DNA of 64,000 nt from Actinobacteria bacterium IMCC26256 (lineage in GTDB: Bacteria; Actinomycetota; Acidimicrobiia; IMCC26256). The stretch is taken from positions 1,239,001 to 1,303,000 of the forward strand of contig CP011489.1 of the NCBI GenBank assembly GCA_001023575.1, in the 5' to 3' direction. The notes beneath the pieces were generated by a model that saw nothing but the letters and a program-made list of their open reading frames with translations, was not told the origin of the DNA and searched no databases. Position numbers and translations under genes: made by a program. Position 1 is the stretch's first letter, and every line of letters begins with the position of its first letter. Below are positions 3,512 through 35,336 of this stretch, piece by piece.

Positions 3512-4678
3512 TTGAACCCCATTGGACCGCTAACAGGGGCCGACGAGTCGTTCGCCCACCAGATTACTGACACGCAGGTTGTGATAGGTACCTCCGACCT
3601 TGCCTGGACAGAGAAGGTCTGCGCTATGGCAGCAGCCAAGGACGGCTCCATACAGATTGGGTTTGGACTGGGAAAATACTCAAACCGTGATGTTATGGAT
3701 GGGTATGCGGGAGTCTCGCGAGGCTGCGAACAGTTAACGGTGAGAGCAAGTCGTCGCCTCTCTCCAAATTTTGACGAGACCTCGATCGGCCCAATTCGAT
3801 ATGAAATCCATGAACCGCTCTCAAGCGTGCGTTTCTCACTCGAACCAAACGATGTATTGCCGCTGGCCTTTAATCTCCGTTTCGATGGAGTGATTCCGTG
3901 TCAACTCGAGGAACGTACACACCAGCGCAACTCCCCTGCCTCGAGAATTAGCGCAGATCTTGTTCGATATCACCAAGTAGGCGTTCCAACCGGATGGCTT
4001 GAACTCGATGGAGTCCGCACGGAGATCAATAGCGAGACTTGGATAGCGACACGTGACCACTCTTGGGGGGTTCGCTACGACGTCGGTCAGCCAATTACTG
4101 ATGTTGAGAAGAATGACCCTTTGGATGGTCTCTCATTCGCAATGATCTGGAGCCCCATTTTGTTTGAGCGTTCTGATGGTTCCAGATACGCAGTTTTCTT
4201 GCATACCGTTCAAGTCGAGGGCTTTGGGCAGACTCTTCATAAGACGGTAACCGGTTCGATAGAGCATGAAGACGGAACGGTGACTCCACTCGTCGATATC
4301 GATTTGAGCGGTCTCAGATTCGACTCAATCAATCGCAGACTCCTTGGAGGAGTGATCGTGACTCGGACTAATACAGGTGAACTCCGTACCTTTACATTGG
4401 AGGTCCCGACAGATACCGGTTTTCATCTCGGAGCAGGTCTCTACTTTGGGTGGAGGGGTCATCATCACGGGGAGTTTCGAGGGCCTCTCAATGTTGAAGG
4501 AGAACGCATCGCCGACTGCAGAGAACCTGAAATAGCAAGAGAACTTCATCAGATTCGAGACACGTTTGTCATCGTCGATGACCCAGCCGGTGGCGGGCGA
4601 GGCTTCGGCAACTGTCAACCTATTGTTGTCGGCCCTTTTGAACGCTGGGGCCTAGATGCCGAGAGTTCCTTCTGGTAG
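3512..4678 (+). CDS. Conserved hypothetical protein, lipocalin-like DUF7064/7065 type
   Basis: This is a soluble 388-residue protein with no signal peptide or membrane segment. Two visible marks are GWLELDGVRTEI followed by TRDHSWGVR (about residues 165-193), and a C-terminal half beginning near GLSFAMIW with alternating beta-strand patterns. A W-x-x-x-R-D-H-S-W-G-x-R signature is typical of the actinobacterial DUF7064/7065 proteins, which are beta-rich and often sit near fatty-acid or steroid catabolism genes. An acyl-CoA dehydrogenase is its divergent neighbour, which fits but does not prove a lipid link. The family name is from memory and no function is known to me. It ends 1 base before the convergent ABC permease gene. 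Confidence 0.7.
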   Translation: MNPIGPLTGADESFAHQITDTQVVIGTSDLAWTEKVCAMAAAKDGSIQIGFGLGKYSNRDVMDGYAGVSRGCEQLTVRASRRLSPNFDETSIGPIRYEIHEPLSSVRFSLEPNDVLPLAFNLRFDGVIPCQLEERTHQRNSPASRISADLVRYHQVGVPTGWLELDGVRTEINSETWIATRDHSWGVRYDVGQPITDVEKNDPLDGLSFAMIWSPILFERSDGSRYAVFLHTVQVEGFGQTLHKTVTGSIEHEDGTVTPLVDIDLSGLRFDSINRRLLGGVIVTRTNTGELRTFTLEVPTDTGFHLGAGLYFGWRGHHHGEFRGPLNVEGERIADCREPEIARELHQIRDTFVIVDDPAGGGRGFGNCQPIVVGPFERWGLDAESSFW

Positions 4679-34087: not shown

Positions 34088-34116
34088 TTATAAATGTCAC
34101 ATAAGGCGGTTACACT
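34088..34116 (+). promoter_or_regulatory. Putative nadA promoter
   Basis: TACACT at 34111-34116 is a reasonable -10 box, with TTATAA at 34088-34093 at a 17-base spacing as a poor -35. The start would be near 34123, exactly where the structured leader begins. It also faces the uvrC promoter on the other strand. Confidence 0.4.
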
Positions 34117-34121
34117 CTTGG

Positions 34122-34244
34122 TAGGCCGGCCTGGTAATCCGGTCATACATATGGATTCCGGGGCCTACAACCCCGCGGAGGGCGACCAGGCTGTCCCCGC
34201 AGGCCAATTCCGGAGACCAGAGCCAAGCCCCAGAAGGGCATTAG
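34122..34244 (+). ncRNA. Structured nadA leader, candidate riboswitch
   Basis: About 120 bases with dense pairing precede nadA. A first hairpin pairs AATCC (34136-34140) with GGATT (34153-34157) and extends outward through CTGG/CCGG. GGCCT (34162-34166) can pair with an upstream AGGCC (34123-34127) or with AGGCC at 34201-34205. The second choice builds a domain with a 5' bulge ACAACCCC (34167-34174), then stem GCGG/CCGC (34175-34178 with 34197-34200). This layout and the ACAACCCCG core match my memory of the NAD+-I (nadA) riboswitch domain. Just before the start, GCCC/GGGC (34227-34230 with 34236-34239) overlaps the Shine-Dalgarno AGAAGGG. The structure is seen by eye; ligand control is inferred. 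Confidence 0.6.
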
Positions 34245-35336
34245 ATGCTTCGAATTCAGACTCCCCTACCTGACCGCTACACAACTGCGTCTGCAGAGGA
34301 ATTAGCCAATTGGATCTCCGAGGCAAAGGAGATTCTTGGTTCCCGTCTATTGATCCTCGGTCATCACTATCAGCGCGACGAGGTCATCAAGTGGGCAGAT
34401 GCTCGTGGCGACTCGTTCCTTCTTGCACAGATTGCTCAAGAGAGCGTCGCAACCGAGATCATCTTCTGTGGAGTCCATTTCATGGCCGAATCAGCGGATG
34501 TGCTCACAGGCGATCACCAGAATGTGATCCTCCCTGATTTGAATGCTGGCTGCTCAATGGCAGACATGGCCGACATAGATCAAGTCGAGGAGGCATGGGA
34601 CTCTTTATCCGAGGTGATCGAGATTGAGAATCTCATTCCGATTACATATATGAACTCCTCTGCAGCAATCAAAGCCTTTGTAGGTCGAAATGGCGGAGCT
34701 GTATGCACCTCTTCAAATGCTCGAGCGGTTCTTGAATGGGCATTGAAGCAGGGCTCACGAGTCCTCTTCTTCCCCGATCAGCACCTAGGTAGAAATACTG
34801 GATTCGAGATGGGGTTCAAAGAAGAACAAATGCTCCTTTGGGACCCTCGCAAGGAACTCGGCGGATTAACCGCAGCGGAGATAGAGCAATCCACGCTCCT
34901 GCTCTGGCGTGGTTGGTGCTCAGTGCACCAGCGCTTTACGCCTGCTCATGTTGAGAAATTTAGGGCTGATCACCCGAATGGTGAGGTCATTGTGCATCCT
35001 GAATGCTCACATGATGTAGTCGAGGTCGCAGACAGAGTTGGCTCAACTGAGCGTATTCTCAATTGGGTACAGAGTGCACCTCCCGGCTCAGCAATTGGGA
35101 TTGGTACAGAGATTCACATGGTGCAGAGACTCGCTGCAGAGAACCCTGACAAGACAATCGTCTCTTTAGATCCTCTTGTGTGCCCATGCTCGACAATGTT
35201 TCGAATCGACGCTCCACATCTTGCTTGGTGCTTAGAGTCGATAATCGCTGGTGATCCGGTCAATCGCATCTCTGTCGATCCGAGCGTTAGCGAGTGGGCT
35301 CGTGTCGCTCTACAGCGGATGCTCGACATTACGTAG
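34245..35336 (+). CDS. nadA: Quinolinate synthase
   Basis: This is a 363-residue NadA. It condenses iminoaspartate with dihydroxyacetone phosphate to give quinolinate. LILGHHYQRDEV carries substrate-binding His. The iron-sulfur Cys are in NAGCSMADM, PECSHDVV and LVCPCSTMF, and CTSSNA precedes a conserved Asn. The start is ATG 34245 with Shine-Dalgarno AGAAGGG eight bases upstream. It is alone; nadB and nadC are not in the window. The leader implies that its translation is regulated. Confidence 0.95.
   Translation: MLRIQTPLPDRYTTASAEELANWISEAKEILGSRLLILGHHYQRDEVIKWADARGDSFLLAQIAQESVATEIIFCGVHFMAESADVLTGDHQNVILPDLNAGCSMADMADIDQVEEAWDSLSEVIEIENLIPITYMNSSAAIKAFVGRNGGAVCTSSNARAVLEWALKQGSRVLFFPDQHLGRNTGFEMGFKEEQMLLWDPRKELGGLTAAEIEQSTLLLWRGWCSVHQRFTPAHVEKFRADHPNGEVIVHPECSHDVVEVADRVGSTERILNWVQSAPPGSAIGIGTEIHMVQRLAAENPDKTIVSLDPLVCPCSTMFRIDAPHLAWCLESIIAGDPVNRISVDPSVSEWARVALQRMLDIT

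Follow-up and report, generated by a model that had tools for sequence, protein, structure and literature searches.

A one-domain nadA leader RNA of Acidimicrobiia with the ADP-pocket features of the NAD+-I riboswitch

Known NAD+ riboswitches and the nadA locus of IMCC26256

The NAD+-I riboswitch has been described, in a statement of Malkowski et al. (2019) as relayed by citing papers, from 101 representatives limited to Acidobacteria (PMC7749635). Its two domains always occur in tandem (PMC7708056), domain 2 always following a domain 1, and the RNA represses nadA with the Shine-Dalgarno (SD) sequence in a helix (PMC10702441). Crystals of domain 1 revealed that the ligand adenine stacks on A8 and hydrogen-bonds to the C6:G47 pair, that Mg2+ at A8 and C14-C15 holds the phosphates, and that A10 binds another Mg2+ (PMC7297122; PMC7708056). 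The double mutation C6U:G47A abolishes ADP binding, and the structures show only the ADP half of the ligand (PMC7297122). Full-length NAD+-I RNA binds ATP (KD 11 uM) better than NAD+ (31.5 uM), and both the need for two domains and the discrimination between NAD+ and ATP are considered open questions (PMC10702441). NAD+-II (pnuC motif) is another sensor of NAD+ with a pseudoknot in its fold (PMC7749635; PMC10085692), and would share both traits with the leader described here, for which NAD+ is the presumed ligand; it differs in its fold, in sensing the nicotinamide riboside half and in its position upstream of pnuC, and gave no match here. No report of nadA riboswitches in Acidimicrobiia or Armatimonadetes was found in the open-licence literature.

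The window analyzed is a stretch of 64,000 nucleotides from Actinobacteria bacterium IMCC26256. It contains an open reading frame of 363 amino acids on the forward strand (34245-35336, ATG at 34245), the product of which we take to be the quinolinate synthase NadA on the basis of homology and established NadA features; a homologue search returned 80 relatives at 54-73% identity. NadA makes quinolinate for NAD+, such that repression of its gene by NAD+ would constitute feedback. A structured leader spans 34123-34239, directly before the gene. The initial annotation had described it as densely paired, and the helices, bulge and SD hairpin that it listed were all located in the sequence. The folding energy of the single leader, on the other hand, is no better than that of dinucleotide shuffles (z = 0.02), so dense pairing alone is no evidence of function, and proof of a structured RNA comes from covariation in relatives instead.

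Architecture, covariation and distribution of the leader

Transcription is predicted to start at about 34123, the 5'-most base of the element, at the 5' hairpin P0. A -10 element (TACACT, 34111-34116, forward strand as for all features below) precedes it. Across the 88 distinct leaders, TANNNT occurs 96 times within 60 nt upstream, and about 88 of these occurrences lie 10-16 nt before P0; nearly all leaders have such a box. A box held at such a fixed distance argues for initiation at P0 and against a start near 34240, which the initial annotation had named as the case contrary to its reading. A strict sigma-70 promoter scan found nothing.

P0 (34124-34144) pairs GGCCGG (34124-34129) with CCGGUC (34139-34144) around a 9-nt loop (34130-34138); its two helix parts are 92.6% and 98.3% paired, with compensatory changes in 6/6 pairs. 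A linker (34145-34153) leads to the outer helix P2, in which GAUUCCG (34154-34160) pairs with CGGAGAC (34211-34217); P2 is 94.4% paired and compensated in 7/7 pairs across relatives, with one A.A mismatch in the window's own copy. Helix P1 joins GGCCU (34162-34166) to AGGCC (34201-34205) and is 98.6% paired across relatives; another copy of AGGCC is present at 34123-34127. It is followed by bulge J1 (34167-34174), the putative ligand pocket, where ACAACCCC reads as the NAD+-I bulge ACANCCCC (PMC7297122). Above J1, the 5' strands of P1a and P1b (GCGG, the bulged A34179 and GGGCG; 34175-34184) face the 3' strands UGUCC and CCGC (34192-34200), P1a pairing GCGG (34175-34178) with CCGC (34197-34200); the bulge between P1a and P1b on the 5' strand measures 1-3 nt in relatives. 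Finally, CCUGG in the P0 loop (34130-34134) pairs with CCAGG in the apical loop (34186-34190), forming a kissing interaction. The linker between P0 and P2 tends to read ACAUA in relatives, with five positions at 51-69%, which is beyond the need of a plain spacer; a tertiary contact is possible.

Covariation in the nadA leaders of relatives, which the initial annotation had proposed as a check, is present in P0, P2, P1, P1a and P1b. The structure alignment comprises 97 sequences, 88 of them distinct, and over the distinct sequences 95.7% of cells in these helices and the pseudoknot hold standard pairs. Double-sided changes occur in 26 of 32 pairs, with 318 such cells observed against 79 +/- 8 in shuffles, and 0/500 shuffles reached the observed values on any measure. 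The shuffle control ignores relatedness, whereas a control that keeps it, sliding the partners by 1-3 columns, reduced pairing to 29-46%. The nested structure guided the alignment, but the pseudoknot was never part of the model, nor does it appear in the single-sequence fold; CCUGG/CCAGG is nonetheless paired in 99.3% of cells and compensated, its middle pair occurring as all four Watson-Crick types (UA 58, CG 18, GC 6, AU 2). G.U cells number 100 and A.C cells 42, of which a single mismatch position accounts for 23; an excess of G.U is expected of RNA transcribed from the nadA strand. The nadA leader is thus a real, strongly covarying structured RNA, and its kissing loops are established together with its helices. 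The most distinctive features of the RNA, namely P2, P0 and the pseudoknot between the two loops, had been overlooked in the fold of the initial annotation.

Most nadA leaders of Acidimicrobiia homologues share the pattern. Among 395 genomes of the class, a set that overlaps the training species, a covariance model, R1, built from 27 of these leaders had matches in 96, spread over 64 of 184 genera and with E-values down to 3.6e-19; the IMCC26256 genome contains exactly one site. The link to nadA is exclusive: all 97 class matches, including the weakest (E = 0.0077), immediately precede nadA in the same orientation, and none of the 97 stands before a gene for ATP, CoA or FAD metabolism. Within the order, nadA was found in 45 of 58 genomes, and by our reading of the scan results roughly 35 of the 42 genomes in which the nadA 5' end is included carry the element. 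It is absent from the leaders of a low-G+C family of the same order (L215-L217, in genomes G003, G076 and G162); in this small-genome, A+T-rich family nadA seems leaderless, with TANNNT immediately ahead of the start codon. In a sample of 296 Actinomycetota genomes, a single match fell outside the class (E = 0.04; G591/L185), within a nusA-like coding sequence and with no nadA, and was rejected as spurious.

Several individual leaders deserve mention. L028 is the one nearest to the consensus. Four from Acidimicrobiia (L037, L177, L178 and L179) carry the bulge CCAUCCCC, in which A8 is replaced by C, along with altered apical loops, possibly reflecting altered specificity or decay. Another (L181) keeps the bulge and has a longer P1a, without P0 and the kissing loop, and might represent an intermediate form. 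Genome assembly G203 contains nadA twice (L122 and L162), each copy with the element, for which contamination (4%) or a true duplicate is possible. In one Acidimicrobiia metagenome-assembled genome (L036), a sub-threshold cobalamin riboswitch match (162-326) and a CRISPR repeat (CRISPR-DR9; 4261-4296) occur near nadA.

Relationship to NAD+-I and to leaders of other phyla

In a scan with Rfam 15, which the initial annotation had proposed for the nadA and cobalamin models, no family reached its cut-off on the leader; RF03013 (nadA, NAD+-I) gave the best and only meaningful match, at 34163-34204, scoring 18.6 bits where the cut-off asks for 37.5. The leader is the top RF03013 match in the whole 2.46-Mb genome (E = 0.16; next 1.6). 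Across 16 relatives RF03013 picked up the leader in four, at 14.1-18.0 bits, and is too weak to serve as a detector there.

The proposed likeness to NAD+-I domain 1 is borne out at the level of individual nucleotides. As in that domain, a helix, a ACANCCCC bulge and a further helix succeed one another upstream of nadA and before the SD, with C:G one step beneath the bulge, G:C as the first pair above it and UG 7 nt from it on the 3' strand. The bulge is conserved at A8 (95%), C9 (100%), A10 (99%), C12 (89%; A in 11%) and C13-C15 (97-99%), while position 11 varies, as it does in the known motif. The pair C34165:G34202, equivalent to C6:G47 with C34165 as C6, is CG in 87 of 88 sequences. A8, C9, A10, C13-C15 and C6:G47, which in the NAD+-I crystal structure touch ADP or Mg2+ or take part in stacking, are the most conserved nucleotides in these leaders, and the identity of the pocket nucleotides is established; both features of domain 1 known to contact ADP, the bulge and the C:G pair beneath it at a distance of one step, are kept. 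At the GYG distance from the bulge lies CUG (34191-34193; spacing taken from the sequence), in which UG is retained and the first G is C in 98%; these columns are invariant, hence covariation is uninformative on the tertiary pair. As far as sequence can tell, the leader would work like NAD+-I.

The differences from NAD+-I are equally clear. A single domain is present here instead of two in tandem: 81 of 88 leaders hold one bulge, the others being loose pattern matches or diverged bulges, and no second domain was found between the end of the model and the start codon in the Acidimicrobiia leaders. P1a comprises 4 bp followed by a 1-3-nt bulge and P1b, in contrast to the uninterrupted 7-bp P1a of domain 1; CUG replaces the GYG of J2, which there pairs with C13 and C14; the closing pair of P1 is usually G:C rather than A:U; and P2 and P0 with its kissing loop are additions, in a different phylum. 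With domain 2 the leader shares the bulge and C:G pair, proximity to the SD and possibly the lack of a proper GYG contact, but its SD lies in a separate small hairpin, whereas domain 2 hides it in its own P1. Rfam cut-off, tandem domains and the 7-bp P1a, which define NAD+-I, are thus all lacking, and the leader is filed outside RF03013 as a variant that shares the NAD+-I ADP-pocket module. The suggestion of a one-domain variant or new class outside Acidobacteria therefore stands, while membership in RF03013 does not. What is new here is the combination of one domain, the outer helix P2 and the 5' hairpin P0, the loop of which kisses the apical loop.

A second group of one-hairpin leaders was encountered in Armatimonadota. 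Sub-cut-off RF03013 matches were present in 26 of 151 genomes of this phylum, to which an Armatimonadetes locus belonged, and 13 of the fetched loci lay directly before nadA, giving about 13 nadA leaders with simpler versions that remain sub-threshold for RF03013. Matches fetched from 201 Chloroflexota and 199 Planctomycetota genomes included none near nadA, which indicates that those in Armatimonadota are not an effect of searching many genomes. The Armatimonadota hairpins resemble the leaders described above in their ACA[U/A]CCCC bulge, in the C:G pair below it (11/11) and in lying directly before nadA; P1 is 5-13 bp and varies between genomes. They differ from the Acidimicrobiia leaders in having neither P0 nor a kissing loop, with the SD directly behind P1, and are nearest to NAD+-I domain 2. 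A domain-2-like ACAUCCCC bulge was noted in L187, L192-L195, L198, L199, L202, L203, L206-L209 and L062. A joint core alignment of all types (A3), in which the 3' side was not structurally aligned, was not used for any model.

Expression platform, proposed mechanism and alternatives

Downstream of P2, a small hairpin pairs GCCC (34227-34230) with GGGC (34236-34239) and contains the SD AGAAGGG (34232-34238), although the scoring credited it with 2 nt of SD overlap. In many leaders P2 is followed by a hairpin formed by a C-run and a G-run, with the SD in its 3' arm (ACCUC-ACG-GAGGU in L013, L014 and L021). By a definition of at least 4 bp of stem and at least 3 SD nucleotides, 35 of 71 relatives have such a hairpin, whereas shuffling the upstream part leaves 25.4 +/- 3.3; these hairpins are thus common and moderately above chance. 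Of the parts of a translational switch claimed earlier, the SD hairpin is supported to this extent; the two exclusive partners of GGCCU are not, since the P1/P0 alternative is available in 49 of 85 leaders and in 47.8 +/- 2.0 when P0s are swapped. A four-segment switch involving the P2 3' strand and an anti-SD was rejected, its pairing being weaker than in swapped controls. Predicted SD accessibility was 0.28 in the free leader and 0.33 with the aptamer forced, with no consistent direction, and no conserved competing pairing emerged from the P2-3'/anti-SD, P1/P0 and SD-accessibility comparisons.

The leader is probably a one-domain riboswitch that places the ADP pocket of NAD+-I domain 1 in a new architecture and through which NAD+ represses nadA translation. 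The ligand, ligand-dependent switching, its direction (off) and its translational level are what we infer, repression by NAD+ being deduced from feedback logic and the NAD+-I precedent of repression with the SD in a helix (PMC10702441). Transcription would start at P0, and P2, P1, P1a and P1b would stack into one long arm. The ACANCCCC bulge that separates P1 from P1a would serve as the pocket, with the ADP half of NAD+ inserted into the minor groove at the C:G pair beneath it. P0 would fold back so that its loop kisses the apical loop, and the kissing loops may replace the bulge-GYG contact, the second domain or both, which stabilize the known riboswitch. At high levels of NAD+, the closed arm would favor the SD-hiding hairpin directly behind P2, and less nadA would be translated. 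A bolder extension, that the P0 kissing hairpin takes over from the second domain and makes the pocket complete, such that the RNA reads whole NAD+ and rejects ATP, a feat beyond the acidobacterial NAD+-I RNA, as a distinct class built on an ancient portable ADP bulge, is speculative and has perhaps one chance in a few.

NAD+ is not certain to be the true ligand, because the known NAD+-I RNA binds ATP too, and better than NAD+ (PMC10702441). With only the ADP half seen in the NAD+-I structures (PMC7297122), the same pocket might accept another ADP-bearing molecule (ATP or ADP as an energy signal, NADH, NaAD, CoA or FAD), so that nadA follows the energy or redox state, and the newly added P0/kissing part might influence specificity in either direction; we consider this unlikely, given that 97/97 matches precede nadA and none precedes an ATP, CoA or FAD gene. 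Structure alone is no proof of ligand binding, and a regulatory-protein site, or a fold that sets mRNA stability or basal translation, would agree with the lack of a conserved alternative pairing in silico. A position-by-position likeness of the unpaired ACANCCCC bulge and flanking C:G pair to an ADP pocket, before the same gene in three phyla, would be unexpected for a protein site, however, and a leader working without a small-molecule ligand seems quite improbable.

Repressors of the NrtR or NiaR type regulate NAD genes in other bacteria, and the inverted repeats could in principle be a DNA operator of this kind. Against an operator stand the compensated helices, which include G.U pairs, the pseudoknot, the invariant bulge that stays unpaired, and a location that is in every case on the strand of nadA and past a -10 box; covariation already contradicts an operator, which we regard as very improbable. 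A chance likeness to RF03013 in a G+C-rich leader would be compatible with 18.6 bits, an E-value of 0.16 per genome and the shuffled fold energy taken alone; it is refuted by the R1 model and by covariation in 88 distinct sequences, and its likelihood is negligible.

Natural one-domain relatives before nadA in two other phyla make the questions of domain number and of NAD+/ATP discrimination directly testable. They indicate that evolution can dispense with the second domain, and that a kissing-loop clamp appears where the long-range contact of domain 1 seems altered. One-domain leaders also fit the view of the ADP-binding bulge as a reusable module, as suggested earlier (PMC7297122). An NAD+ riboswitch considered rare and nearly confined to a single phylum is probably wider in distribution and more varied than has been thought.
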